From: Dolichospermum sp. ST_sed8
GTDB lineage: Bacteria > Cyanobacteriota > Cyanobacteriia > Cyanobacteriales > Nostocaceae
Direction: 5' to 3'
Length of the DNA stretch: 64,000 bases
Assembly: GCA_028658405.1 (NCBI GenBank)
Contig: JAKOGY010000001.1
Coordinates: 1 to 64,000 of the forward strand
The notes under the pieces were generated by a model, which saw only the letters and a program-made list of their open reading frames with translations, searched no databases and was not told where the DNA came from. Below are positions 25,591 to 60,775 of the stretch, one piece after another. Every line of letters begins with the position of its first letter. Position 1 is the first letter of the stretch. Made by a program: the position numbers and the translations under genes.

Positions 25591-28500
25591 TTAATTTTTT
25601 GGAAACCCATATTCTTTTTTCCGATCTTCAAACCTATATTCACGATTGTAGTTATCATCTGGATCATAACCAATATCGCCAACAAAGCAGAAGGAAGTTA
25701 CTAAATTAAAGGTTCTTTTTTCAAACACAAATTCTGTTTGTGGTGGCATTTTTATGAAATCAAGTTTAAACTTTTTCCATTCTCTTTGGTTATGTCTATC
25801 CATAAAAACATCTAGATTTTGTAACCGATTTAGCCATACATCTTTTTCAATTATTACTGTGTCTGTATCTGTTTCTTCAAATTCTAAATAAATTTCTTCT
25901 AAGAATTTCCGCATTTCCTTGGGATATCTACCAGCTAAGGCTAAAAATGCAATCAGGGTTTGCTTACATTCTGGTGTAGGTTCTATTTTCCATGTTGTAT
26001 CATTTGCTGTTGGAGTCCAGATAATTTTGATGATTTTGCAAATATTAATCAGTCGTTTTGCAGTTCTGGGAGTTAAGTCAACGTGCTGACAACATTCTTT
26101 AATCCATTGGAATTCTTCAGCAGTAAATCTTTCAAAGCTAACTAATGGGTCACTATTTGCAGAATGTTGGATTTTTTTATTCTTAGATTCTGAATTAGAT
26201 TTTTTATTTTGAGATTTAGAAATATTATCTTCCGTTATTGTTTCTTCAGTTTCGACGGTATACTCTTCAATAACAGGATATTCTTTAAAATTATCTTGAT
26301 ATGATATTTCTGAAACCTCTTCTAATTCTGGTAAAAAGCTACTTTCATTATTTACTTGTTGTAAAGGAATGCTACTTTGTTCTGTAGTTTGTTGTAAAAC
26401 CGTATTTTTTTGGCTTACTGATTGTGAATTAAAGAAATTTTGATTTTCTTGTTTAGTCTCCTCTTGAATATCTACTAAAGATTTTAAATAACTCTCTGCC
26501 ACATCTTTGCTAATAGGCCGCATTCTATAGGGAAGTTGAATGATTTTCTCAATATAATCAACACCAGAAGGAGTACCACCACGTTTTAAAACTCCTCTAT
26601 AAGTTTGTTCTAAAGCCCGACCAATATAACGGTCATCTATTGCTAAGACAATGATGAAAATATTGGTATTTAACAATAATTGTACAGATTCTAAAACTTG
26701 GACAACTTTATCAGGAGGACAACGATCTAAATCATCTATATATAAAACTATTCTTACTGGACCTCTAGGAAAAATTTCTTTTAGAACTGCGAGTTTATCA
26801 GGATTTGTTTTTCCTGGTATATAGGTTAAATGATCAGATAAATCTGATAAATCGCGTTGAACTTGGTTCATTATTCCTAAAAGTTTTTGATAGGAATTTT
26901 CTTCTAAGCGATTATTGACAAAATCCAATAAAGATGTATATTGAGCAGTTAAGCCAACACGCTGTTTTTGTCTTTCTGCTTGTAATTGCAGTTTCTCTAT
27001 TTTTTCCTGGTTTTCATTTAGTTTTTTGTTAGCGGCTTCTTTCAGTTTATAGATTGTTTTTATATCTTGATTTTGTTCATCTTCTAATTTTGAATGATCT
27101 TCATTATTTTCATCTTCTTTAGTAGCTTTTTGACACTCTTTAATTGCTTTTTCAATTTCTTCTTGAGTTTTTTGTTCTTTCTCTTTCTCTAATTTTTGCT
27201 TTTCTTCTTGTATATTTTCTTTCGCTAATTGGAAAAATTTTACTGCTTTTACTTGCAAGACTTGGATTTTTTTAAATATTTCTAGACCAATAGATATAGC
27301 TGGAATTGCTGAGACACTGGTTAACCAAAGTTGTAACCCTGTAGATATGGTTTTAAAGAATGGTAAAACATTTAAAACAGTTGGAATAATATAAACGATT
27401 AGACAATAAGTAATAAATGGTAAAGTAATTGTACCTAAAAAGATTAATAATATCTTTTTATTTTTCTTAGTAAATTCAGTGAATCCAACTATTTTACTAG
27501 GTTGTTCTTCTAAAAAATTAGTTATTTGTTCTTTATTTTTAACGAGAATTTTAATTTTATTATCTTTTTGATTCTTTTTCTTATTTTCATTTTTAATTAG
27601 TTCTTCTGCTTTATCTAAAATGGTAGATTCAGATAATTTTTCTAAATCCTTCAATATCGGAAATTGTTTCTCTAAATCTTTTCTATCTTTAAACCCGCAA
27701 GAATTGAGAAAATCTTTAAGAATCGAATTACCAAAATCATCTTTTAGCGTTTCTTTAAGTTGAGATAGAAAAACAACTAATATTGCTTTATCACTCATTT
27801 TTCTCGCAATATTTACCTCGATTTTCTTAATTTCTTGATTAAAATCTTGCTCAAGTTGCTCAATATTTTGATTGTCTACTTGCACGGCTGCCTCTAATTT
27901 TTGTAATTCATTTTCTATGCATTCTAACTTATCCTTTTCTTTTTTTCTAACTTTACTAAGAATATCCCAAAGTGCATAATTGTCAGCATTTAAATTAGCA
28001 AATATTTCCTCACTTAATTGCGATTCTAATATTGCCTTTCTATCACTATCACTCATCTGATTGAGGACACCCCAAATCTCACCTCCAGCTAAATCATTAA
28101 CATTTCCATTTGTTCTTAACTGTTGTTCTAAAGTTAATTGCCGGTCAAGTTGTTCAAAAATAGTCTGCATTAAACTTGCCCACAGGTCAGACTTAGCATA
28201 ACTCCAGGCATTAAATTTAATTTGATAAACATGACCAACATAAGGAGAAAGATAGGTTTCATCTCCCGTTTTACCCCATGTCTGTTTTTCTGTAAGTTGT
28301 TGACAGCGAATTTTGGTAATTTGTTTTTCTATTAGGTGCATACCAAAGGATTTACCGCTACCCCAATTACCTAAAATCGCTACCGCTAAAGGAGGTTCAA
28401 GACTGCGTAACATTAATACATCAGCTAAAGATTGTAATTCCTTAGCTACATCTAAAGAATCTTCACCGGTGGCTTGGTCATTGCGGAAAGCTTGAGGAAC

Positions 28501-30129
28501 ACGAGTAATATTAAACTCTTGCCAACGCCAAGCTTTGAGACCATCTACACCAGCGCTGATAATGTAGTCTTTTTGATATTTTCCTTCTTTGTCTTTGAGG
28601 GTGTCAAAAATAACGGAATAAACTGCCCCTTCGTGATTACCAATAATGAGATGTCGTTTACCTTGGGTGTCAGAAAGATCCCATAATCGTACTGTTCCGT
28701 CACTACTAGCAGAAGCCAATGTTCGTCCGTCGGAGCTAAAACTGACACTTGTAACATAATCATCATGCCCTGAGAGGGTGCGGATTTGATTTCCTGTCTC
28801 CACTTCCCAGAGTTTGATCTTCATGTCACGACCACCAGAAGCCAATATCTGTCCGTCGGGGCTAAAACTGACGCTCCAAACATAACCATCATGTCCTGAA
28901 AGGGTGCGGATTTGGTTTCCTGTCTCTAATTCCCAAAGTTTTATCTCCCTGTCAAAACTAGCAGAAGCCAATGTCTGTCCGTTGGGGCTAAAACTAATGC
29001 TTGTGACATAATTATCATGCCCTGAGAGAGTGCGGATTTGGTTTCCTGTCTCCACTTCCCAGAGTTTGATCTTCCTGTCACGACTACCAGAAGCCAATGT
29101 CTGTCCGTTGGGGTTAAAACTGATGCTATTTATATAATTGTTATGCCCTGTAAAGGTAGGGATTTCCCTTCCTGTCTCCACTTCCCAGAGTTTGATCTTT
29201 TTGTCACGGCCACCAGAAGCCAATGTCTTTCCGTCGGGGCTAAAACTGACGCTTCTAACGGAATTATCATGCCCTGTGAAGGTGAGGATTTCCCTTCCTG
29301 TCTCTACTTCCCAGAATTTGATCTTTTTGTCACGACCACCAGAAGCCAATGTCTTTCCGTCGGGGCTAAAACTGACACTATTAACATAATGATCATGCCC
29401 TGTAAGGGTGCGGATTTGGTTTCCTGTCTCTACTTCCCACAGTTTGATCTTTTTGTCACAACTACCAGAAACCAATGTCTGTCCGTCATGGCTAAAACCA
29501 ACGCTATTGACATAACCATTATGCCCTGAGAGGGTGCGGATTTGATTTCCTGTCTCTACTTCCCACAGTTTGATCTTTTTGTCACGACCACCAGAAGCCA
29601 ATGTCTGTCCGTCGGGGCTAAAACCGACACTATTGACATAATTATCGTGATCTGTAAAAGTGCGAATTTGGTTTCCTGTCTCTACTTCCCACAGTTTTAT
29701 CTTGTTGTCACCACCACCAGAAGCCAATGTTTGTCCGTCGGGGCTAAAACTGACGCTATTAACATTACTATCATGCCCTATCAGGGTGCGGATTTCCCTT
29801 CCTGTCTCTATTTCCCAGAGTTTGATCTTGTTGTCATCACCACTAGAAGCCAATGTCTGTCCGTCGGGGCTAAAACTGACGCTCAAAACAGAATAATCGT
29901 GACTACCCTGGCAAGTTAACCACTTTGTCCCGGTTAGCACATTCCAAATTTCTATTGTACCATCTTGTAAACCCACAGCAATGCGTTGTCGTTCTTGGGG
30001 TGATACAGCTACTGTATATACTTGACAATCGAACTCAGCAAAGGGTTTTGAGGGTTCTGGGTTTTGAATTTCTTGTTCAGGTTCGGGAAATAATAAGCTT
30101 TGTGCCGATACTTCACTTTGTGCTTCCAT
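25591..30129 (-). CDS. WD40-repeat KAP family P-loop NTPase
   Basis: A 1512-residue protein of unusual architecture. Residues about 30-536 hold twelve WD40 blades, of which ten (residues 76-486) are near-identical 42-residue units ending in IKLWEVETG. A KAP NTPase module follows, with Walker A GNWGSGKS at 587-594 and Walker B IVLYIDDLDRC at 1127-1137. Between them is a long insertion with coiled coils (about 730-870 and 965-1060) and a hydrophobic hairpin at about 893-953. This is the KAP feature that places the ATPase at a membrane. Residues about 1210-1330 are acidic and low in complexity. KAP NTPases are found in bacterial conflict systems and plasmids; the WD40 part could sense a ligand or protein. 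The function is not known. It is a lone gene with no linked effector. Confidence 0.9.
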   Translation of the reverse strand: MEAQSEVSAQSLLFPEPEQEIQNPEPSKPFAEFDCQVYTVAVSPQERQRIAVGLQDGTIEIWNVLTGTKWLTCQGSHDYSVLSVSFSPDGQTLASSGDDNKIKLWEIETGREIRTLIGHDSNVNSVSFSPDGQTLASGGGDNKIKLWEVETGNQIRTFTDHDNYVNSVGFSPDGQTLASGGRDKKIKLWEVETGNQIRTLSGHNGYVNSVGFSHDGQTLVSGSCDKKIKLWEVETGNQIRTLTGHDHYVNSVSFSPDGKTLASGGRDKKIKFWEVETGREILTFTGHDNSVRSVSFSPDGKTLASGGRDKKIKLWEVETGREIPTFTGHNNYINSISFNPNGQTLASGSRDRKIKLWEVETGNQIRTLSGHDNYVTSISFSPNGQTLASASFDREIKLWELETGNQIRTLSGHDGYVWSVSFSPDGQILASGGRDMKIKLWEVETGNQIRTLSGHDDYVTSVSFSSDGRTLASASSDGTVRLWDLSDTQGKRHLIIGNHEGAVYSVIFDTLKDKEGKYQKDYIISAGVDGLKAWRWQEFNITRVPQAFRNDQATGEDSLDVAKELQSLADVLMLRSLEPPLAVAILGNWGSGKSFGMHLIEKQITKIRCQQLTEKQTWGKTGDETYLSPYVGHVYQIKFNAWSYAKSDLWASLMQTIFEQLDRQLTLEQQLRTNGNVNDLAGGEIWGVLNQMSDSDRKAILESQLSEEIFANLNADNYALWDILSKVRKKEKDKLECIENELQKLEAAVQVDNQNIEQLEQDFNQEIKKIEVNIARKMSDKAILVVFLSQLKETLKDDFGNSILKDFLNSCGFKDRKDLEKQFPILKDLEKLSESTILDKAEELIKNENKKKNQKDNKIKILVKNKEQITNFLEEQPSKIVGFTEFTKKNKKILLIFLGTITLPFITYCLIVYIIPTVLNVLPFFKTISTGLQLWLTSVSAIPAISIGLEIFKKIQVLQVKAVKFFQLAKENIQEEKQKLEKEKEQKTQEEIEKAIKECQKATKEDENNEDHSKLEDEQNQDIKTIYKLKEAANKKLNENQEKIEKLQLQAERQKQRVGLTAQYTSLLDFVNNRLEENSYQKLLGIMNQVQRDLSDLSDHLTYIPGKTNPDKLAVLKEIFPRGPVRIVLYIDDLDRCPPDKVVQVLESVQLLLNTNIFIIVLAIDDRYIGRALEQTYRGVLKRGGTPSGVDYIEKIIQLPYRMRPISKDVAESYLKSLVDIQEETKQENQNFFNSQSVSQKNTVLQQTTEQSSIPLQQVNNESSFLPELEEVSEISYQDNFKEYPVIEEYTVETEETITEDNISKSQNKKSNSESKNKKIQHSANSDPLVSFERFTAEEFQWIKECCQHVDLTPRTAKRLINICKIIKIIWTPTANDTTWKIEPTPECKQTLIAFLALAGRYPKEMRKFLEEIYLEFEETDTDTVIIEKDVWLNRLQNLDVFMDRHNQREWKKFKLDFIKMPPQTEFVFEKRTFNLVTSFCFVGDIGYDPDDNYNREYRFEDRKKEYGFPKN
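28672..29904 (-). repeat. 126-bp tandem coding repeats (WD40 blades 2-11)
   Basis: The DNA coding for blades 2 to 11 is a 126-base tandem array. Units share long stretches such as CCAGAAGCCAATGTCTGTCC (plus strand) with few differences. This nucleotide identity means the blades were recently duplicated or homogenised. Confidence 0.85.
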
Positions 30130-39445: not shown

Positions 39446-40144
39446 ATGTTTGAGCAAACTTTTAAAAATATTGATGATGTTCTCTGGAAAGAGGCGGGCT
39501 GTACTACAGAGTTAGATTACACAGAACAAACTTCATGGCTATTGTTTTTGAAGTATTTGGATGATTTGGAACAGGAACGCTCTGAAAAAGCGGAATTAAG
39601 TGGCGAATCCTATACGTTTATTATTGAGCAAAAACATCGTTGGTCAGTTTGGGCAGCACGAAAAGATAAAAATGGTAAATTAGATGATGATCATGCTTTA
39701 ACTGGGGATGATTTAATCAATTATGTAAATGGTGAATTATTTCCATATTTACAAGGTTTTAAGGAACGGTCTAGCGGTTCAGATACTATAGAATATAAAA
39801 TTGGCGAGATTTTTAGCGAGATAAAAAATAGGTTTCAAAGTGGTTATAGTTTGCGGGATGCTTTGGAATATATTGATGAATTAAGATTTAGATCCCAGCA
39901 GGAAAAACATGAGTTATCCCATCTCTATGAAGCAAAAATCAAGAATATGGGAAATGCGGGGCGTAATGGTGGGGAATATTATACACCACGTCCTTTAATT
40001 CGCGCCATGATTCAGGTTGTTAAACCGAAAATTGGTGAAAAAATTTATGATGGTGCTTGCGGTTCGGCGGGTTTTTTATGTGAATCGGTGCTTGAATCTG
40101 AATCTTCAATACTAGAGGCTTTTGTGGCAGAGGCAACGGTATAA
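39446..40144 (+). pseudogene. hsdM: Type I restriction-modification methylase HsdM, truncated
   Basis: The first about 215 residues are clear HsdM: the N-terminal helical domain (MFEQTFKNIDDVLWKEAGCT, SWLLFLKYLDDLE) and the start of the N6-adenine methylase with EYYTPRPLIRAM and SAM-binding motif I YDGACGSAGFLCE. The protein then stops. The NPPF catalytic motif and the rest of the domain (about 250-300 residues) are absent. The last residues, LESESSILEAFVAEATV, do not fit HsdM and may be the tail of a hicB-type gene fused at the break, because a hicA sequence begins at the overlapping TAATG. The methylase cannot work. Confidence 0.85.
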
Positions 40145-40504
40145 TGACAAAGTTTCCGGTTGATGCTCCTAAAGCAAAAGTGATTAAGGTGCTTGAAAGT
40201 TTTTGATTTTTAATAGTACGAGAAAAAGAGCATATTTCTATGATTAAACAAAATTCTGATGGCACAAATACTCCTTTAACTTTACCAAATCATAAACTTA
40301 TTAAAGGTTCTACTCTCAGAGGGTGTTTGAAAAGTATCAGAATTAATCGAGATCCCCCCAACCCCCCTTAAAAAGGGGGGATTTAGGGGGATCTACGGGT
40401 GTCAGATCCCACAAAAAAAAGTTTTCAAACAACCTCTCAGAAGTATCTGTACTCAATCTGGTATCTCACGGGATGATTTTATTGCTGCTTATGAACAAAG
40501 TTAG
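40144..40504 (+). pseudogene. hicA: HicA family toxin gene, inactivated twice
   Basis: The reading frame starts MTKFPVDAPKAKVIKVLESF, hits a TGA where relatives have a Gly codon (codon 21), then continues as FLIVREKEHISMIKQNSDGT and NTPLTLPNHKLIKGSTLR, the HicA double-stranded-RNA-binding-like fold with its catalytic His region. After LR the frame is split by a 114-bp element (40321-40434). It resumes as SICTQSGISRDDFIAAYEQS and a stop. HicA toxins degrade mRNA. The nonsense mutation and the insertion each inactivate it. Confidence 0.85.
40321..40434. mobile_element. 114-bp MITE inserted in hicA with target duplication
   Basis: The terminal inverted repeats are GGGTGTTTGAAAAG and GGTTGTTTGAAAAC (12 of 14 match). 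The interior has the hairpin CCCCCCTTAAAAAGGGGGG. TCTCAGA stands on both sides (40314-40320 and 40435-40441) as a target-site duplication of 7, possibly 8, bases. Removing the element and one duplicate joins CTC-AGA to AGT-ATC and restores the hicA reading frame exactly. Confidence 0.88.
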
Positions 40505-40534
40505 AAATATATTCGCTCTGATTGGGGGGATGTT

Positions 40535-41572
40535 GTGAGTGAGATAAGTTCTCAGGATTATGCTAATTTCTGCTATGAGATTAAACGGCGAATCCGCGAT
40601 CGCCAATTGGCAGCTTTACGCAGTGTAAATCGGGAATTAGTGCGGCTATATTGGGAAATTGGCGAGTTAATTCACCACAAGCAGGAAACCCTAGGCTGGG
40701 GTAAATCTGTGGTGGAAACTCTAGCGCGAGATTTACAAAGTGAGTTCCCAGGACGGAATGGGTTTTCGGCAAATAATCTCTGGTTAATGCGCCAGTTTTA
40801 CTGTGAATATGTGGATCATCCAAATCTCCAATTATTGATTGGAGAAATTAGCTGGACAAAGAATCTAGTCATTTTTGGTCGTTGTAAAGATGATTTGGAG
40901 CGGGAATTTTATCTTCGGGCTACGGCTCGTTATGGCTGGACAACGGCGGTGCTTAAACATCAAGTAGATAATAAGAGTTATGAGAAATATTTACTGAATC
41001 AAACTAATTTTGATGCCACTGTAACGGATGATATCAAGGCACAGGCGGTGCTGGCGGTTAAAGATAACTATACCTTTGATTTTCTGGATTTGGCGGATCA
41101 ACATTCAGAACGGGATTTAGAGCAGTCTTTGGTGCAGAATTTACGGGGGTTTCTGTCTGAGTTGGGCGGTGCGTTTGCGTTTATTGGTAATCAATATCGG
41201 CTGGAGGTGGGTGGTCAGGAATACTTTATTGATCTGCTATTATTTCATCGTCGGTTACGCTGTTTGGTGGCAATCGAGTTGAAAATAGGTGATTTTAAGC
41301 CGGAACATAAGGGCAAAATGGAATTTTATCTGGAGGCTTTGGATTGTCAAGAAAAGATGGAGGGTGAAAATCCGCCGATAGGAATGATTATTTGTCGTTA
41401 TAAAAATAAAACGGTGGTGGAATATGCTTTACGAACGGCATCCCGTCCGATTGGGGTGGCGACTTATACAATTGTACCGCAGTTGCCTGATGCTTATCGT
41501 GAGCAGTTGCCTAGTCCTGAAGAGATTGCTGAACGGTTAAGATTATGGCAGGAGGATAGTAATGATGAGTAG
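40535..41572 (+). CDS. DUF1016 (YhcG-like) PD-(D/E)XK nuclease family protein
   Basis: A 345-residue protein. The N-terminal DUF1016 domain covers about residues 1-170 (RSVNRELVRLYWEIGELI, NLWLMRQFYCEY). The C-terminal domain, about 180-335, has the nuclease motif: D in YFIDLLLFHRRLRCLVAIEL with the following K, then KGKMEFYLEALD. Such genes often accompany restriction systems, and a nuclease role is inferred. The frame starts with GTG. It lies 30 bases after the hicA remnant and its end overlaps the hsdS start, so the two are probably co-transcribed. Confidence 0.88.
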   Translation: MSEISSQDYANFCYEIKRRIRDRQLAALRSVNRELVRLYWEIGELIHHKQETLGWGKSVVETLARDLQSEFPGRNGFSANNLWLMRQFYCEYVDHPNLQLLIGEISWTKNLVIFGRCKDDLEREFYLRATARYGWTTAVLKHQVDNKSYEKYLLNQTNFDATVTDDIKAQAVLAVKDNYTFDFLDLADQHSERDLEQSLVQNLRGFLSELGGAFAFIGNQYRLEVGGQEYFIDLLLFHRRLRCLVAIELKIGDFKPEHKGKMEFYLEALDCQEKMEGENPPIGMIICRYKNKTVVEYALRTASRPIGVATYTIVPQLPDAYREQLPSPEEIAERLRLWQEDSNDE

Positions 41573-42752
41573 TGGAGAGATGGAATTGATGGTTGATAAT
41601 AGACAGTTGCCAGTGGGGTGGGAAATTAAAAAACTTGGTGAAGTTTGTACTCTTCAAAGAGGATTTGATCTTCCTAAAGGACAACGAGAAGAAGGTGATT
41701 ATCTTCTAATTAGCTCTAGTGGTTGTATTGATACTCATACAGAAGCTAAATCATTCGCTCCAGGTGTAGTTACTGGTCGAAGTGGAAGTATTGGATCTGT
41801 TTTTTTTATTACTGAAGATTTTTGGCCTCTCAATACGACTCTTTATGTAAAAGACTTTCACGGGAATGATCCGCGCTTTATATTTTATTTACTCAACAAA
41901 TTTGATCTCAAACGTTTTGCGAGTGGAGTTGGAGTTCCAACACTTAATAGAAATAGTGTTCATAGTGAGTTAGTAATAATTCCATCATCAATTATTGAAC
42001 AAAAGCGAATTGTGGCGATCGCAGATGAGGCATTTGAGGGGATTGATAGAGCAATTCGTAACACGGAAAAAAACCTCTCTAATGCCCGCGAATTATTTGA
42101 AAGTTATCTAAATTCAATCTTTACCCAAAAAGGCGACGGGTGGGTAAAAAGCAAGCTTAACGAAGTTTGTGAAAAAATCACTGATGGAACTCATCAAACA
42201 CCAAAATATTTTGAAACAGGTTTCGTATTTTTATCCTCGCGTAATGTTACGACTGGCGCAATTAATTGGGATAAAGTCAAATATATAGACGATGCACAAC
42301 ATATCACTATGCAGAAGCGTGTTTCACCTCGGCTATACGATATATTATTGGCAAAAAATGGCACTACGGGTGTTGCTGCATTGGTTGATAAAGACATTGA
42401 TTTCGATATTTATGTTAGCCTAGCTTTGCTTAGACCATTGCCAGTGATCTTGCCTAAATTTATGTTGCACTTTGTCAATTCTCCAGTTGCAAAAGAGCAG
42501 TTCAATAAAAGATTGAAAGGCATTGGAGTTCCCAATTTACATTTAGAAGAAATCCGAGAGGTAACTATTTGTTATCCACAAGAATTGAGATTACAAGAGG
42601 GTATAATTATCAAGATCGATGAGATGCGAAGTCAGATTCTTCGCCTCGAAAACATCTACCGCCAAAAAATCGCCGCATTAAAAGAACTGAAACAATCCAT
42701 CCTACAAAAAGCATTTACAGGAGAACTCACCGCACATAAAGGGGAAAAATAG
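41562..42752 (+). CDS. hsdS: Type I restriction-modification specificity subunit HsdS
   Basis: A 396-residue DNA-recognition subunit. It has two target recognition domains: about residues 15-150 (PVGWEIKKLGEVCTLQRG, ending PLNTTLYVKD and EQKRIVAIADEAF) and about 195-350 (WVKSKLNEVCEKITDGTHQT, ending RPLPVILPKFMLHF). Each is followed by a helical spacer, and the end is LKELKQSILQKAFTGELT, the standard HsdS terminus. AGGAGG precedes the ATG. The gene looks intact even though its partners hsdM and hsdR are broken, so it may pair with an unlinked methylase or be a passenger. Confidence 0.92.
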   Translation: MMSSGEMELMVDNRQLPVGWEIKKLGEVCTLQRGFDLPKGQREEGDYLLISSSGCIDTHTEAKSFAPGVVTGRSGSIGSVFFITEDFWPLNTTLYVKDFHGNDPRFIFYLLNKFDLKRFASGVGVPTLNRNSVHSELVIIPSSIIEQKRIVAIADEAFEGIDRAIRNTEKNLSNARELFESYLNSIFTQKGDGWVKSKLNEVCEKITDGTHQTPKYFETGFVFLSSRNVTTGAINWDKVKYIDDAQHITMQKRVSPRLYDILLAKNGTTGVAALVDKDIDFDIYVSLALLRPLPVILPKFMLHFVNSPVAKEQFNKRLKGIGVPNLHLEEIREVTICYPQELRLQEGIIIKIDEMRSQILRLENIYRQKIAALKELKQSILQKAFTGELTAHKGEK

Positions 42753-42772
42753 AAAAGATGATAAAAATATTT

Positions 42773-43021
42773 TGTCTGAATCAGGATGCTCAGGATTTAA
42801 GGATGTACAGGATGTTTATTGATATTATAAAATAGTATTTATTTCCGACAGAAAACGAATAAATCAATCCTGAAAATCCTCAAATCATGGAAATCCTGAT
42901 TCTGACAAAAAATGTATAAGCTGTTTATTAATATAATCAAATAGTATTTATTACCGACAGAAAACGAGTAAATCAATCCTGAAAATCCTCAAATCCTGGA
43001 AATCCTGATTCTGACAAAAAA
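42773..43021. repeat. Two further CAGGAT-type palindromic elements
   Basis: TGTCTGAATCAGGATGCTCA at 42773 pairs with the end TGGAAATCCTGATTCTGACA at about 42906. A second copy of the body and right arm follows to about 43018. The body contains TATTTATTTCCGACAGAAAA, unlike the bodies at 1-967, so this is a subfamily. It fills the gap between hsdS and vapB. Confidence 0.8.
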
Positions 43022-43047
43022 TGTACACTTACTAGCAGAGAGTTTAA

Positions 43048-43672
<625 letters not shown>

Positions 43673-43676
<4 letters not shown>

Positions 43677-45449
43677 ACGAAGCAGAAACCCGCGCCGAAT
43701 TAATTGACCCCGCCTTAACTGCTGCTGGTTGGGGAGTTATCGAAAATAGTCGCATCCGTCGAGAAGTCATCGCCCCTGGCCGTTTAATTGGCAACGGTAA
43801 ACGGGCAAAAGCAGACATCGCTGATTATGTATTAGTTTATCGTGGTGAAAAACTCGCTGTTATTGAAGCTAAAAAACGCGAATTACCTGATACAGAAGGT
43901 TTAGCACAGGCTAAAAAATACGCCGAAAAATTACAAACTCGCTTTGCATACTCTACCAATGGTGTTGGCATCTATCAAGTAGATATGCACACAGGGAAAG
44001 AAGGCTATATAAATCAATATCCCACACCCCATGAACTATGGGAAGCCACCTTTAATAAAGAAAATACATGGCGCGATCGCTTTGCAACTATTCCCTTTGA
44101 AGATAAAAGCCTACGCTTATTTTGGTGAGCCTGTTTATATTTATGCGCTCAAAGATGGGATTAATGATGGGTTTTTAACTCCCTTTAAAGTTAGAGAAAT
44201 AGAAACTACTTTAGATGAATATATTTACAGCCCTGATGATGATGTCATAGAAGGGGCGATAGATGATGAAAAAACCTATACAGAAACTGATTTTAATCGC
44301 ATCATTGAAATTGAAGAACGGGAACGCTACCGAGTGCAACTATTCATGGAGAAAATAGATCAAAATCAAAAAACTCTTGTATTTTGTGCTAACCAAGATC
44401 ACGCCCTAGCAGTAAGAAATTTAATCAATCAAATCAAGATTAGTAATAATCCTAATTACTGTCATCGAGTTACAGCTAATGATGGGAAATTAGGAGAACA
44501 ACACCTCAAAACGTTTCAAGATAATGAAAAAAATATTCCTACTATTTTAACAACTTCTCAAAAACTTTCCACAGGAGTTGATGCTCGCAATGTGCGGAAT
44601 ATAGTATTGATGCGTCCTATTAATTACATGATTGAATTTAAACAAATCATTGGTCGTGGTACTCGGTTATATGATGGGAAAGATTATTTTACTATTTATG
44701 ATTTTGTCAAAGCCTACGAACATTTTAACGATCCAGAATGGGATGGTGAACCCCAAGAACCTGTAAAAGTTACCAACAGAAAAGCACGGGAGTTATCACC
44801 AAATACAGATGATAATAACCCAGAAGAGAGAAGCGAAAAAACAAAAAATATCACACCTAAAATAATTAAAGTTCAATTAAGAGATGGTAAAGAAAGAACT
44901 ATTCAACATCAAATATCTACCAGCTTTTGGAGTCCAGATGGTAAACCCATGACTGCCGCAGAATTTATAGAAAAGCTATTTGGTGAAATTCCCGAACTGT
45001 TTAAAAATGAAAATGAATTAAGAACTATTTGGAGTCGTCCAGATACAAGAAAAGCCCTATTAGAAGGATTATCAGAAAAGGGTTATGATTCAGAACAACT
45101 AACGCAAATTAGCTGTTTAATTAATGCTGAAAGAAGTGATTTATATGATGTTTTAGCCTATATTGCTTATGCTTCTGTGCCTATTAGCCGTCGGGAAAGG
45201 GTTTTGGCTCATAAATCGTTAATTTTCTCTAAGTATGTAGGTAAACAACAGGAATTTCTTAATTTTGTGTTAGATCAATATATTAAGGATGGAGTAGAAG
45301 AACTGGATCGATCTAAATTACCCCAACTATTAGAGTTGAAATATCATACTGTTCATGATGCTATTAAAGAACTAGGTAGCGTTGCTAATATCAGTGAAGT
45401 ATTTATCGGATTTCAGCAGTATTTGTATTCACAAGATATAGCAGCTTAA
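43673..45449 (+). pseudogene. hsdR: Type I restriction endonuclease HsdR with internal deletion and frameshift
   Basis: The 5' part (43673-44128, 151 residues) carries the N-terminal nuclease domain, with DIADYVLVYRGEKLAVIEAKKR supplying the D, E and K residues, and ends at WRDRFATIPFEDK. The next bases switch frame and resume in AYAYFGEPVYIYALKDGIND, then helicase motifs V and VI (STGVDARN, QIIGRGTRLYDG) and the C-terminal domain. In full-length HsdR a stretch of roughly 300 residues with helicase motifs I, II and III lies between FEDK and DTYAYFGEPVY. That stretch is gone here, at a junction near 44107. The motor and therefore restriction are lost. Confidence 0.88.
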
Positions 45450-46909: not shown

Positions 46910-47839
46910 TTATTGAATTTTAATATCAATATAGCCAATTATGATTTCAGTTGAGTTTAAAGGATAAAAATACAATCTCCATGCACCCGGAGTCATGCGA
47001 ATATGCAAACTAAATAATCTTTTTTTTCCGTCAGGACATTGAAAAGTTAACTCTTGTTCAAATTTTTGTAATCTGGATTCACTTTCGGGAGTTGCTTTAC
47101 TAGGTAAACTATTGAGATCAAAATTACCTACTGTCCAATTTTTAGAAGCATTTTCAACTTCTGTTAATTTTTTAATAATTGCTTGAAATATAGGATGACT
47201 ATTCTTAATATTTTGTAATTGTTTTTCTACAGAATCACAAAATTCTAAATGAGGAAATATCTTTTTTCTTTTATTCCATAAATCTAAGCCATTATTAATA
47301 TTATCTTGAAGACGACTCTTAATCCATGTTTGATGTTCAATAACATGATTTATACTGCTTGCGTGTCTAACTTCTATAATTTCTTCTAATAATTCTCCAT
47401 CTTCATTATTTGTAATTTGTAATAGATGGATAACACTATTTTTCCATAATTTGTGTGTTTTCAAACTAACAGATAATGCTTTTAATCTATAAGCATAGAC
47501 AAATCCTTTCGGTTCGTTATTATAATCTGTGCAAGCATATAATAATTCACTTTCTTGATCTTGATCAAAAATTTCATCAGATTCAAAAAATTGCATACTC
47601 AAGATAAAATCCTGTTCAACTTGATCAACATTTGGATCATTAAGCCATTTAGATATAGGATAATTAGATGCAAGATTAATATTATGAAAACTATTATGAC
47701 TTAGTAATTGTTGTTGTATTCCTTGTTCTAATGCTTCTCTTAAAGTTTGAATAAAATTAGACATTAATTCTCTAGCTTTATATTCGTTATCTTCTAAATT
47801 CAAAAGACATAATTCATTAAATACCAGTTGAGTATCCAT
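46910..47839 (-). CDS. Unknown third gene of the DUF262-AAA operon
   Basis: A 309-residue protein I do not recognise. Residues about 1-200 are helical and acidic. The C-terminal about 60 residues (CPDGKKRLFSLHIRMTPGAW, then RLYFYPLNSTEIIIGYI) form a compact beta-rich piece vaguely like a RelE-type fold; this likeness is an inference only. It starts 3 bases after the AAA gene ends, so all three genes should be translated from one mRNA. It is the natural candidate for the effector or adaptor of the system. Confidence 0.7.
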   Translation of the reverse strand: MDTQLVFNELCLLNLEDNEYKARELMSNFIQTLREALEQGIQQQLLSHNSFHNINLASNYPISKWLNDPNVDQVEQDFILSMQFFESDEIFDQDQESELLYACTDYNNEPKGFVYAYRLKALSVSLKTHKLWKNSVIHLLQITNNEDGELLEEIIEVRHASSINHVIEHQTWIKSRLQDNINNGLDLWNKRKKIFPHLEFCDSVEKQLQNIKNSHPIFQAIIKKLTEVENASKNWTVGNFDLNSLPSKATPESESRLQKFEQELTFQCPDGKKRLFSLHIRMTPGAWRLYFYPLNSTEIIIGYIDIKIQ

Positions 47840-47842
47840 TAT

Positions 47843-48943
47843 TTAATCTCCCACTGGTGCTAATAATGCTCTTGCACTTTTATTCCATTCATCAAAGAAA
47901 TTTTTAGGAATTTTATCAATACGTCCTTTCTTATCTAATTTAGGAGAGATAATTTTAATTTCATTCGTTTTATCTCGAATCTCAAAAAAGTGAAGTTGTA
48001 CATCTTCAGGTTTAATTTTGCCAGCATGAACAGAAATTCTGATACCATATAAAATATGATCACTATGACTTTCAATAATTACTTGAATACCATGATTAGC
48101 AGCTAAAGCTAATAATTGACCTAGTTGTGATTGTCCTTGGGGGTGAAGATGAGATTCAGGATTTTCAATAATTATCATTGTTCCTGGTTTAGAGGAAAGA
48201 ATTGCTGTGAGAATAGGTAAAGAATAAGTGACACCAAAACCTACATTAAAAGGAGAATATTCTTTACTAACGCCAAAAGAATATTTTATTGTCATTGCAT
48301 TGGCAACTTGTCTTATGTTAATATTAATATTAGGACTAATTTCTCCCATCCAAGCATCAACTTGATCTTTTAAACTTTGAGATTTACTGCAAGGATGACT
48401 TAATTCACTAATGGGAATATCTTGATTACCAAATTCATATAAAAAATGTGCGGTATATTCTCCTTTTTTACCTATTTGTCTATGTTTAACAACATCATTT
48501 TCAGATAAAGGATAAGATTCTTCTGGTGTAATTCTTTCTGCACCTAAATAGTGAAAATTATCATTAAATAAATTAAATTGATTAACTTGAGCATCATTAA
48601 TTATTAATGCAATTGGTAGCACATTACTACTAGGAGAATCATAATCAAAATTCCAGATTGTGTGCTGATCATTTTCCCAAACAATACCAAAGCTAATTAA
48701 TTCTTCTTCCGCATTTTCATATAGAGCATCTTCAGCAGTACCTATATAAGCTATCTTATTATCAAGTTTTATCCCACTATTAGGTAAATAATCTCTTATA
48801 TAAGCATAGCGTAATAAAACTAATGATTGAATTATAGAAGATTTACCTGTACTATTTAAACCAGAAATTAAGGTAAGAGATTTAAAATCAAAATTTTCAT
48901 CTGCAAATGCTTTGAAGTTTTTTAAATGTAATTTTTTGATCAT
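47843..48943 (-). CDS. AAA family ATPase (OLD/DUF3696-like)
   Basis: A 366-residue SMC/OLD-like ATPase. It opens MIKKLHLKNFKAFAD. Walker A is GLNSTGKS (residues 28-35), an ABC-like segment is at about 230-245 (FNVGFGVTYSLPI), Walker B is IIIENPESHLHP (257-268), and the ESHSDHIL switch motif is at 291-298. These are typical of AAA15/AAA21 ATPases in anti-phage systems. The C-terminal part matches the DUF3696 type. No Toprim nuclease domain is attached. It overlaps the DUF262 gene upstream by 4 bases. Confidence 0.85.
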   Translation of the reverse strand: MIKKLHLKNFKAFADENFDFKSLTLISGLNSTGKSSIIQSLVLLRYAYIRDYLPNSGIKLDNKIAYIGTAEDALYENAEEELISFGIVWENDQHTIWNFDYDSPSSNVLPIALIINDAQVNQFNLFNDNFHYLGAERITPEESYPLSENDVVKHRQIGKKGEYTAHFLYEFGNQDIPISELSHPCSKSQSLKDQVDAWMGEISPNININIRQVANAMTIKYSFGVSKEYSPFNVGFGVTYSLPILTAILSSKPGTMIIIENPESHLHPQGQSQLGQLLALAANHGIQVIIESHSDHILYGIRISVHAGKIKPEDVQLHFFEIRDKTNEIKIISPKLDKKGRIDKIPKNFFDEWNKSARALLAPVGD

Positions 48944-50097
48944 AATAATATACTTTGAATAATTCCTTGAATATGTTTAAATCGTTCTTTAACGCTGTTA
49001 GCATCTCCAGCACTTTTATATAAAATACAATCAAATTTACCATCTTCTTGCTCTTTTAATAAAACTTCATATAAATCTTCTTTTCTTTGTTTAACAATAT
49101 TGATTTCCTGATCATCTAATTTAGCAAGATTGATTGACCATGCTTCCAACAATGCTTTATTAATAGGATATCTTTTTTGTTGCTTTATGGTAGATAGTTT
49201 TGGTTTTCTAAATGCTTGTCTATCAAATAAATCATAAGCAAGATTCATAATCAACAGAAATTCCTGTTTAATGTTCTCTATTTCAGAATCATCCATTTGA
49301 TTCATCTCGGTCATTTTTCCATCTAAAAAATAATCATAATCTTTAAAATTCAGGTTATCTATATTACTTGTCATTAAAGATAAAACTTTTAAAATACATT
49401 CTTGATCAATCATTCTTTTATCTTTAATTCCGTTATCTGTTGTTTTTTTAAATTCTGGAGATTGAGAAAGTTCTTTTAATAAATTTGTGATTTTATTTGG
49501 AGAGTTTTTAGCATAGCGCATTTCTTGAGCAGAAAGTGCAGTTCCTCCTTGATTAATCCGTTTAAATATATTAAAAGTAATTTCGGATGATGTTCCTCTT
49601 AAAATTAAATATACTGTTAATTTTGTTTCTTTAATTCTTCTTTGCCAACGAGGTGTAAGTTCCTGATATTTTTTACCATGTAAATCAGTGAAAAAATCTA
49701 ATCCATCGAGAGTAAAACTTTGATCAGTTACAAATTCCTTAAATGTTGTTATTCTTTGCATTCCATCTATAACCAACCATTTATCATCATTAGTTGCATC
49801 AATATAAAAAGCAGGTAAAGGAATTTGCACTAAAAGAGATTCAATTAACCGACTTTTTGCAGTTTTAGTCCAAATACCTTCTTTTCGTTGAAATTCAGGG
49901 GCGATCATTCGATGATTATTTAATCTGTTCAAAATTTGCTGTACGGTCATGATATTAGTTCCCATACTAATGCAAGTCGGATCAAATCCTTGAGAAAGCG
50001 TTGGCTCTTCTGTTGGTTCTTCTTCCTCTTCAATATCTATATCTTCCTCATATTCTGAGTTAATCTGATTTTGTTCTAAATTATTTGTTTCTGTCAT
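48940..50097 (-). CDS. DUF262 (GmrS N-terminal-like) protein
   Basis: A 385-residue protein, the first gene of the operon. An acidic N-terminal tail (EEDIDIEEEEEPTEEPT) precedes the DUF262 domain, which has the ParB/sulfiredoxin-like motif VIDGMQRITTF (D111-R115) and the F-x3-N-x-GG-x-L block IFKRINQGGTALSAQEMR. DUF262 proteins include the nuclease subunits of GmrSD and SspE-type defences. There is no DUF1607 (GmrD) domain. Its start lies 205 bases from the divergent uvrA start. Confidence 0.88.
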   Translation of the reverse strand: MTETNNLEQNQINSEYEEDIDIEEEEEPTEEPTLSQGFDPTCISMGTNIMTVQQILNRLNNHRMIAPEFQRKEGIWTKTAKSRLIESLLVQIPLPAFYIDATNDDKWLVIDGMQRITTFKEFVTDQSFTLDGLDFFTDLHGKKYQELTPRWQRRIKETKLTVYLILRGTSSEITFNIFKRINQGGTALSAQEMRYAKNSPNKITNLLKELSQSPEFKKTTDNGIKDKRMIDQECILKVLSLMTSNIDNLNFKDYDYFLDGKMTEMNQMDDSEIENIKQEFLLIMNLAYDLFDRQAFRKPKLSTIKQQKRYPINKALLEAWSINLAKLDDQEINIVKQRKEDLYEVLLKEQEDGKFDCILYKSAGDANSVKERFKHIQGIIQSILL

Positions 50098-58206: not shown

Positions 58207-59616
58207 ATGGCAAATGATAAGCATTTAGCAATACTAAGGCAAGGTATAGAGGTTTGGAATAATTGGGTATTTCCAACATACAATTTAACACGCATAAGCC
58301 CGAATCTGAGTGAGGCTAACCTGAGTGGTGTTAACCTGCGTGGTGCTAACCTGTATTACACGAACCTGAGTAATGCTAACCTGAGTGGTGCTGACCTGCG
58401 TGAGACTTACCTGTATGCTGCTGACCTGAGCGGTGCTGACCTTCGTGATGCAAACCTCACACAGGTAACTCCTGATATACGTCTCAGAGATTCTTCTCAT
58501 AGTCCAAGAACTGACTTCAGTAAAGCTAACCTGAGTAATGCTAATCTGAGTAGCGCTTACCTTCGAGCAGCTAACCTGAGTAATGCTAATCTGAGTAGTG
58601 CTTGCCTTCATGAGGCTAACCTGAGTGATGCTAACCTTCGCGGTGCTTGCCTTCATGAGGCTAACCTGAGTAATGCTAACCTTCACGGTGCTGACCTACG
58701 TGATGCTAATCTGCGTGATGCTCACCTAATCGGTGCTGACCTAAGCTACGCTAACTTGAGTTGCAATAACTTAAGTACGTTAGACCTGCGAGATGCTAAC
58801 TTGTATGGTGTTAACCTGAGCAACGCAAACCTGAGCAACGCAAACCTGAGTGGCGCTGACCTGAGTGATGCTGATTTATCAAAGTCGCAAGTAATAGGTA
58901 CAAATTTTCACAATGCCAATATTACAGGCGCTTGTATAAAAGACTGGCATATTAATAGTGAAACCAAATTAGATACAATAGTTTGTAACTTTGTTTATCT
59001 TTTTTATTATGATATTTGTTATTGGGAACATCCTGTGATAGTAGACCAATTTGGTTATGAAGGAGAATACAGACAACAAGAAAGTAGAATACCTTTAAAC
59101 GGTGATTTTGCTCCTGGAGAGTTTGCAAGTTTATACAAAAATATTCTAGAAAGTACAGATTTAATTTTACGCAAAAATATCCAAAGACCACAACTTCAAA
59201 TATCAAAATTAGATACTACTATTAATAACCAGGGGATTGAATTTTATTCAAATTCAAAAATTCACACTTGGCAAAATCTACGCTTTCGCTCAAAAACAGA
59301 AATCAAAATTGCTGAAGCATTAGACAGAACTGGAGTTTTATTTGTACCCAACTCATTAGCACGACTCAACACAGCCAAAGGTAGAGAAAATAAAGAAGCT
59401 GATTTCCTCATTTGTTATAACGGTAAATGGGGAGTTTTGGAAGTTGATGGACCCTTTCACACCGCAGAACGCAGAGTTGAAGAACAAGAAAGAGAACGCA
59501 TTTTCAAAAAAAACGGGATCAAAGTTGTAGAAAGATTTGATTCTGAAAGATGTTATAACCATCCTGATGAAGTAGTGCAGGAATTTTTCAAAATGATAGA
59601 AATTGGATATTCTTAA
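58207..59616 (+). CDS. Pentapeptide-repeat protein fused to a PD-(D/E)XK nuclease-like domain
   Basis: A 469-residue two-part protein. Residues about 30-235 are pentapeptide repeats of the A(D/N)LS/R type (NLSNANLSGADL), forming a right-handed beta helix that often mimics DNA or binds protein. Residues about 350-465 look like the DUF559/Vsr-like nuclease fold: E in RSKTEIKIAEAL, D in KEADFLICY, E-x-D in LEVDGPFH, and then a helix with RVEEQERERIF. The middle (240-350) is of unknown nature. A role in DNA handling or defence is inferred. It is a single gene with no clear partner. Confidence 0.85.
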   Translation: MANDKHLAILRQGIEVWNNWVFPTYNLTRISPNLSEANLSGVNLRGANLYYTNLSNANLSGADLRETYLYAADLSGADLRDANLTQVTPDIRLRDSSHSPRTDFSKANLSNANLSSAYLRAANLSNANLSSACLHEANLSDANLRGACLHEANLSNANLHGADLRDANLRDAHLIGADLSYANLSCNNLSTLDLRDANLYGVNLSNANLSNANLSGADLSDADLSKSQVIGTNFHNANITGACIKDWHINSETKLDTIVCNFVYLFYYDICYWEHPVIVDQFGYEGEYRQQESRIPLNGDFAPGEFASLYKNILESTDLILRKNIQRPQLQISKLDTTINNQGIEFYSNSKIHTWQNLRFRSKTEIKIAEALDRTGVLFVPNSLARLNTAKGRENKEADFLICYNGKWGVLEVDGPFHTAERRVEEQERERIFKKNGIKVVERFDSERCYNHPDEVVQEFFKMIEIGYS

Positions 59617-59725: not shown

Positions 59726-60775
59726 ATGGCTACAAAAATCCCCGTTACCGTCATCACAGGCTTCTTAGGAAGCGGTAAAACCAGCATTATCCGTCACCTC
59801 CTCCAAAACAACCAAGGACGACGGATAGCAGTATTAGTCAACGAATTTGGCGAACTGGGGATAGATGGAGAATTATTAAAATCCTGTCAAATTTGCCCCG
59901 AAGATGAAACAGAAGCAAATCCAGAAACTAACATATTTGAACTGACAAACGGCTGTTTATGCTGCACCGTGCAAGAAGAATTTTACCCGACAATGCGGGA
60001 ATTAATTAAACGCCGAGATAGCATTGATTGTATTATCATTGAAACCTCTGGTTTAGCATTACCAAAACCTTTAATTAAAGCCTTTCGTTGGCAAGAAATC
60101 CGCAATGCTGCTACAGTAGATGCAGTAATTACAGTGGTAGATTGTGCTGCGGTTGCGGAAGGGACATTTGCTAGTGATTTAGAGGCGATCGCTGCCCAAC
60201 GCCAAGAAGATGATAGTCTAGAACATGAAACACCATTACAAGAATTGTTTGAAGATCAACTTGCTTGTGCTGATTTAGTAATTTTGAATAAAACTGATTT
60301 AGTTGATAGTGAAACTCAAGCAAGAGTTTTAGAATTAGTCAAGCATGAATTACCGAGAGTTGTGAAAATTGTCTCTAGTGATTATGGTAAATTAGACCCA
60401 TCTATATTATTAGGATTTGCAGCCGCAGTTGAAGATAATTTAGATTCTCGTCCTAGTCATCATGATACAGAAGAAGACCATGATCATGATGATGAAATTA
60501 ACTCAACTCACGTAATTTTAGATCGGACATTTGATCCAGAGAAGCTCCAAGCAACATTAGAAAAACTAGCACAAGAACAAGAAATTTACCGAATTAAAGG
60601 ATTTGTGGCTGTTGAGAATAAACTCATGCGGTTAGTTATGCAAGGTGTGGGAAATAGATTTGATAAATTTTATGATCGTCCTTGGAAACCAGAAGAAGCA
60701 AAACAAACCAGTTTAGTTTTTATCGGTCGTAATTTACAATCTTCAGTAATAGAATCTCAATTAGTAGCTTTGTAA
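59726..60775 (+). CDS. CobW family (G3E) GTPase, metal chaperone
   Basis: A 349-residue GTPase of the CobW/COG0523 family. Walker A GFLGSGKT is at residues 12-19. The metal-binding motif G-C-L-C-C is at 76-80. Walker B and base recognition are in IIIETSGLALPKP and ILNKTDLV. A His/Asp-rich stretch HHDTEEDHDHDDE is near residue 250, and the CobW C-terminal domain ends the protein. These proteins insert or deliver Zn or Co. No cobalamin synthesis genes and no zinc-uptake regulator (Zur) site were recognised nearby. An ABA4-like gene follows after one base, so they form an operon. Confidence 0.93.
   Translation: MATKIPVTVITGFLGSGKTSIIRHLLQNNQGRRIAVLVNEFGELGIDGELLKSCQICPEDETEANPETNIFELTNGCLCCTVQEEFYPTMRELIKRRDSIDCIIIETSGLALPKPLIKAFRWQEIRNAATVDAVITVVDCAAVAEGTFASDLEAIAAQRQEDDSLEHETPLQELFEDQLACADLVILNKTDLVDSETQARVLELVKHELPRVVKIVSSDYGKLDPSILLGFAAAVEDNLDSRPSHHDTEEDHDHDDEINSTHVILDRTFDPEKLQATLEKLAQEQEIYRIKGFVAVENKLMRLVMQGVGNRFDKFYDRPWKPEEAKQTSLVFIGRNLQSSVIESQLVAL

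Follow-up and report, generated by a model that had tools for sequence, protein, structure and literature searches.

Type I restriction, with its HsdS protein, couples a constant catalytic part to an exchanged recognition part. Conflict systems of multicellular bacteria are built from modular effectors that include REase-fold domains, with pentapeptide repeats (PR) as scaffold modules (Kaur et al. 2020, PMC7159879). For the majority of PR proteins in cyanobacteria no function is known (PMC8145042), and HetL, a PR protein from the same cyanobacterial group as the genome described here, binds HetR via the faces of its helix (PMC7476756). Residues E25, D51, H64, H69, and D97 of the DUF559 protein VsrA from Caulobacter have been paired with E73, D102, D115, H119, and D124 of Escherichia coli Vsr (PMC12907096), and EDxHD proteins are established as a family of homing endonucleases (PMC6083498).

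We analysed a window of 64,000 nt from Dolichospermum sp. ST_sed8 (GenBank assembly GCA_028658405.1, contig JAKOGY010000001.1, positions 1 to 64,000 of the forward strand), which encodes a PR helix fused to a DUF559/Vsr-type PD-(D/E)XK domain. The protein shares with Caulobacter VsrA (PMC12907096) the PD-(D/E)XK core and the residue order E..D..(E)xD..H..D/E, but differs in its PR helix and linker and has no known link to a cytosine methyltransferase or to mismatch repair. With other cyanobacterial PR-linker proteins it has in common the PR tract, the linker/cap module and, in some of them, the N-cap, whereas its nuclease tail replaces a coiled-coil with CHAT, PDC-M14B-like, or other ends, and the PR part of those proteins was conserved in the one related pair measured. 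Like the conflict systems, in which modules vary between close relatives (PMC7159879; TRADD-N paper, PMC8195603), it has a module of this kind, but no MoxR-vWA, EAD, or TRADD-N partner was recognised next to the gene. HetL, which has no nuclease, is a precedent only for protein binding by PR faces. The protein would work in an HsdS-like mode, combining constant catalysis with exchanged recognition, although it is a single polypeptide without a methyltransferase and DNA reading by PR rods is not known. Our best reading, held tentatively, is a single-gene nuclease effector in which a constant PD-(D/E)XK domain of the DUF559/Vsr kind is carried on a rapidly replaced PR recognition rod, probably serving defence or conflict.

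Gene and protein architecture

The gene starts with ATG and its open reading frame coincides exactly with positions 58207–59616 on the plus strand, encoding 469 aa arranged as an N-cap, a PR helix, a linker/cap module, and the nuclease-like domain. The N-cap (residues 1–28; 58207–58290, plus strand) contains two predicted helices (residues 3–27) and is kept among relatives together with approximately 60 nt of DNA 5′ of the gene. The PR tract (residues ~31–240; 58297–58926, plus strand) comprises about 42 repeats, is hypervariable in orthologues, and matches the Pentapeptide family (PF00805) with E = 5e-62. AlphaFold2 modelled it with pLDDT ~90 as regular strands every five residues, the repeat of a quadrilateral beta-helix. 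A non-repeat loop interrupts the tract at residues ~88–101 (58468–58509, plus strand), with pLDDT <50 at residues 88–97. The helix is separated from the nuclease by a linker/cap module of ~100 aa that the preliminary description had overlooked (residues ~241–345; 58927–59241, plus strand; ACIKDW...FAPGEFASLY...TDLIL...NNQG), for which no Pfam family was matched. The DUF559/Vsr-type domain follows at residues 352–469 (59260–59613, plus strand). The open reading frame, Pfam matches, AlphaFold2, Foldseek, and alignments all agree on the fusion of a PR helix to a nuclease-like domain that had been proposed from the sequence at first sight.

The gene itself stands alone, as first described: an SDR gene lies ~530 nt upstream and a cobW-type GTPase gene (59726–60775, plus strand) begins 109 nt downstream, the latter being a conserved 3′ flank that we used for reference only and place outside the system. 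The gene is outside any annotated defence operon, with a defence island 8–19 kb upstream. PADLOC gave the protein only a weak PDC-S68 match (E = 0.003, ~100 residues) and recognised no adjacent partner genes.

The surrounding window has defence-related features of its own. A broken type I restriction locus at 39446–45446 (plus strand) carries an HsdM N-terminal fragment, PDC-S02, HsdS, a PIN-like gene, and HsdR fragments (PADLOC). A three-gene operon at 46913–50097 (minus strand), 8–11 kb upstream of the fusion gene, matches PADLOC NsnA (2e-113), NsnB (5e-118), and NsnC (4e-87). A 1512-aa protein encoded at 25594–30129 (minus strand) has PADLOC matches to HEAT-ARM_XIII (2e-40) and a QatA-like protein (8e-18).

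Fold and active site of the nuclease domain

The whole protein matched DUF559 (PF04480) with E = 4.5e-4 and 20.5 bits, and the C-terminal part alone with 1.7e-4 and 21.8 bits, against a cut-off of 20.6; the match covers the second half of the domain and lies at the cut-off, not well above it. Among relatives scanned singly, 14 of 19 matched the family (E ≤ 0.01). L073 and L088 scored 27.9 and 28.8 bits. In the AlphaFold2 model of the C-terminal half, residues 363–444 follow the H-E-E-E-H-E order of the PD-(D/E)XK core, with pLDDT ~60–95 across the nuclease domain and no confidence in the linker. The top Foldseek matches in the PDB are PD-(D/E)XK nucleases (Bax1, R2 endonuclease, AF1548, VRR_NUC, and the small subunit of R.BspD6I), although scores were modest, with a best E of ~3e-4, only four matches below 0.001, and low TM-scores, in part because the low-confidence linker was included in the query. 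When the C-terminal sequence was compared with those of solved structures, only chance matches to RNA polymerase subunits came up (E ≥ 0.057). Core order and structural matches together bear out the PD-(D/E)XK fold for which the preliminary description had suggested structure prediction as the check.

The active-site candidates of the window protein run in the order E..D..ExD..H..D/E: E365 in the first helix (59299–59301), D399 (59401–59403), E412-V-D414 forming the ExD motif (59440–59448), H418 (59458–59460), and E426 (59482–59484), all on the plus strand, the last being D or E in most intact relatives. The final motif position holds D, in place of the K of classical PD-(D/E)XK members. By sequence order, we infer that the VsrA/Vsr residue set corresponds to E365, D399, D414, H418, and E426.

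The E..D..ExD set is intact in 10 of 11 PR-linker members, the exception (G002) having K for E412. Beyond this clade it is intact in 5 of 14 PR fusions without the linker, 5 of 14 other fusions, and 1 of 49 members of the HTH-type group. The preliminary description had tied its nuclease assignment to conservation of these acidic residues, which thus holds for the close relatives and fails in the wider family. The nuclease domain of 14 related genes is under purifying selection, with a median dN/dS of 0.17 over 91 pairs.

The PR rod is replaced while the nuclease stays constant

We compared 14 related genes from Dolichospermum, Anabaena, Richelia, Sphaerospermopsis, and Nodularia; the relative L036, which had been divided at wrong domain boundaries and slightly lowers the mean domain identities, was left out of the dN/dS set (by length), the PR-tract identities, and the DNA-segment comparisons. 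The nuclease is ~92% identical across the 14 genes. Their PR tracts range from 69 to 299 aa, with a mean pairwise identity of 50% vs 45% to an unrelated PR protein, and PR similarity was uncorrelated with nuclease similarity (Spearman −0.12, p = 0.26). DNA identity was 52–71% in the PR tract vs 93–97% in the nuclease. Between the window gene and L142 it was 88% in the start region (60 + 60 nt), 59% in the PR tract, 76% in the linker, and 97% in the nuclease.

Other PR genes of the genus vary far less. One long control PR gene from the same genome showed 84–96% identity along all 259 aa in 14 further genomes of the genus, and a second, also long, was 74–93% identical over its full 330 aa in eight others, with one more, partial match; the length of both is fixed across the genus. 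In a PR-linker-coiled-coil pair of the genus, the PR part was 86% identical.

We looked for the origin of the new rods. Searching the genus for a PR donor gave nothing near-identical: at the DNA level the window PR tract was best matched by other alleles of the same gene (67–71%), and other PR genes matched it only over short stretches (e.g. 139 bp at 75%). As for silent cassettes like those of shufflons or hsdS loci, the flanks of 20 loci held a single other PR gene (in L146), and there were no inverted repeats of note around the window gene.

These data bear on the reading that the PR helix has no bearing on specificity and serves passively as spacer or scaffold, its repetitive units expanding, contracting, and recombining, with only the nuclease mattering. 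Repeat units of 15 nt, length changes in 5-residue steps, and 70 identical, recent unit pairs in the longest allele (L152) are in keeping with it. Nevertheless, equally repetitive long PR genes of the same genome retain length and sequence, the PR part is retained in fusions with decayed nucleases, and rods differ to the level of unrelated PR proteins at a nuclease dS of 0.1–0.26, for which slippage and neutral substitution are not readily sufficient, so that we regard a passive spacer as unlikely.

The wider family and the state of its active site

The nuclease domain was detected in 89 of 245 genomes of one cyanobacterial order with one model and in 138 of 391 with a second model at a stricter threshold. 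The fusion recurs among other genomes, as the preliminary description had proposed to ask, and with about 100 distinct domain-bearing proteins in that order it is more than a chance event. Domain partners include PR tracts with or without the linker, an HTH-like front end of ~100 residues, and several others. The PR-linker group formed one clade (SH-aLRT 99) when 98 domains were placed on a tree, and front ends changed at least six times vs 39.5 after shuffling, so the fusions are long inherited and exchanged only occasionally. One front end, that of L043 (= L156, Phormidium sp. LEGE 05292), matches anti-phage Stk2 (2.9e-13) and AbiJ (5e-4). Further relatives are present in Ktedonobacter and one Anaerolineae genome. 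No relatives were found in viral contigs (IMG/VR, with the patterns used), which leaves the idea of phage or plasmid cargo without support there.

We detected the linker in 73 of 100 genomes of the order; a coiled-coil-like stretch comes after it there and, in several cases, CHAT or another end. As it is common with other tails, the window protein looks like the usual PR-linker chassis with a nuclease replacing the tail.

Several neighbouring branches of the family were seen along the way. PR-linker proteins L163–L192 have coiled-coil, CHAT, or other tails, with as many as 15 copies of the linker in a single genome (G053), and the tail of one PR-linker protein (L025, residues 550–679) matches the defence candidate PDC-M14B (1e-7). 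A large cyanobacterial clade (L011, L041–L047, and ~40 more loci) combines the HTH-like front end with a small number of PR repeats and the nuclease fold seen here; its active site is mostly lost (1 of 49 intact), making it a widespread pseudo-nuclease. Its front end was also considered as the VMAP-M9 domain, a reading that we rejected, as Pfam and NCBIfam gave no support and just a very weak sigma-70-type match. The window’s own genome also holds a decayed copy of the nuclease domain with two stops (G000:C490:10637–10759). Since most wider relatives are without the active site, cutting is not required in every family member.

Rod variability was compared between fusions with intact and decayed active sites in an exploratory test, the association having first been noticed on six lineages and the set then enlarged. 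PR identity was below nuclease identity in 315 of 316 intact pairs, which are not independent; about five intact and three decayed lineages underlie the comparison. The intact lineages are the Nostocaceae clade (with Nodularia), L244/L245, L101/L102, L037/L039, and, as a near tie with similar rods (0.92 vs 0.95), L251/L252. In the three decayed lineages with close pairs, L158–L160 (Symploca), L099/L105/L108, and L115/L116, it is the PR part that shows the greater similarity and the nuclease the lesser; in linker-bearing members, the automatically cut PR stretch includes some linker, which inflates PR similarity. On a simple reading, the decayed proteins may keep another PR function while the nuclease relaxes, and the intact ones may be pressed to change the PR part.

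The cobW locus and a probable exchange of alleles

In most of these genomes the gene lies directly before cobW. Over 45 pairs, cobW dS ranged from 0.08 to 0.77 while nuclease dS was always 0.12–0.26; single values from the 351-nt nuclease stretch are imprecise, and it is the missing trend that counts. The histories of gene and flank are thus decoupled. At a cobW dS of only 0.08–0.09, the window gene and L123 have ~42 vs 18 repeats, and L124 and L127 have 33 vs 60. As nuclease dS is independent of cobW dS, alleles appear to have been exchanged, and it is likely, judging from these comparisons, that they move among strains and genera.

Genomes without the gene have unrelated genes preceding cobW. 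Remnants of it persist at the cobW site in G003, G007, and G014, and an N-cap remnant in G009. Empty and occupied sites have in common only ~30–140 bp of DNA before cobW, and their upstream neighbours are unrelated. Among genomes of the genus (L260–L266), the stretch 5′ of cobW is a variable spot with unrelated genes in each strain. The close relatives L142 and L150 sit at other loci.

This setting weighs on the proposal that the protein is a Vsr/DUF559-type repair or housekeeping endonuclease whose PR helix docks a repair partner. Its active site does correspond to that of the DUF559 protein VsrA of Caulobacter, itself matched to E. coli Vsr (PMC12907096), and the nuclease is under purifying selection; yet patchy presence and decay within the genus, cargo-like placement in a variable site, a hypervariable docking part, and the defence-type front end of another member make such a role improbable. 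No adjacent cytosine methyltransferase was seen either, although VsrA is likewise unlinked to its methyltransferase.

An EDxHD (Vsr-like) endonuclease of the homing or selfish type, free-standing and spreading through the cobW site before it decays, would account for the EDxHD-like residues, for alleles apparently exchanged across strains and genera, and for the decayed remnants at the same site in four genomes. We consider it equally improbable, as no clean empty site with both flanks conserved was found and the spot instead holds various cargo, as the recognition part, expected to be constant in such an enzyme, varies, and as close relatives reside elsewhere.

Proposed function

The preliminary description had suggested that the PR helix might imitate DNA or bind gyrase, as the PR proteins MfpA and Qnr are known to do (review, PMC8145042), and so deliver or inhibit the nuclease; with a PR tract of only mild negative charge (net −3 to −9 per 100 aa), scores of 63.8 bits against a Qnr cut-off of 240 and of 60.2 against an MfpA cut-off of 360, and a rod variable in sequence and length facing a conserved gyrase, this is very improbable. 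What stands of that proposal is its spirit, namely that the nuclease may owe its delivery to a target to the helix.

We therefore return to the effector with a replaceable rod. In this mechanism, the rod and linker would probably bind a protein partner or trigger, which may come from a phage or mobile element or be a host protein that such an element attacks; binding would bring or release the nuclease, which would then nick or cut DNA. New rods would arise and spread by allele replacement at the site, of the whole gene or of its front part. A nearly unchanged cutter with a rod that is replaced outright is what one would expect of a rod that selects a changing target, phage defence being one example. 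Because the PR tract is replaced while the nuclease is constant and other PR genes of the genome are invariant, the variable part should meet a changing partner. By analogy with HetL, which binds HetR, and with the PR and REase-fold modules of conflict systems, a constant nuclease with a replaced rod would fit a recognition module. The weakest steps of this reading are DNA cleavage and the trigger. A more specific version, in which the protein is an immune receptor built on a nuclease and its PR helix a specificity module under rapid replacement, so that allelic rods choose the trigger and the constant DUF559/Vsr-type domain executes, is possible, though we hold it doubtful.

Novelty and implications

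A literature search, largely of titles and abstracts and mostly without subscription papers, found no report of a PR-DUF559 or PR-nuclease fusion or of PR turnover. The parts are known, and they are joined and evolve in a manner for which we found no report in that search; what is new is the mode of gene evolution. If our reading is true, PR helices would join the few scaffolds diversified for recognition, such as TRDs, LRRs, and C-type lectin folds, and, in the immune-receptor version, the PR rod would be a variable recognition element of a kind new to bacterial immunity.
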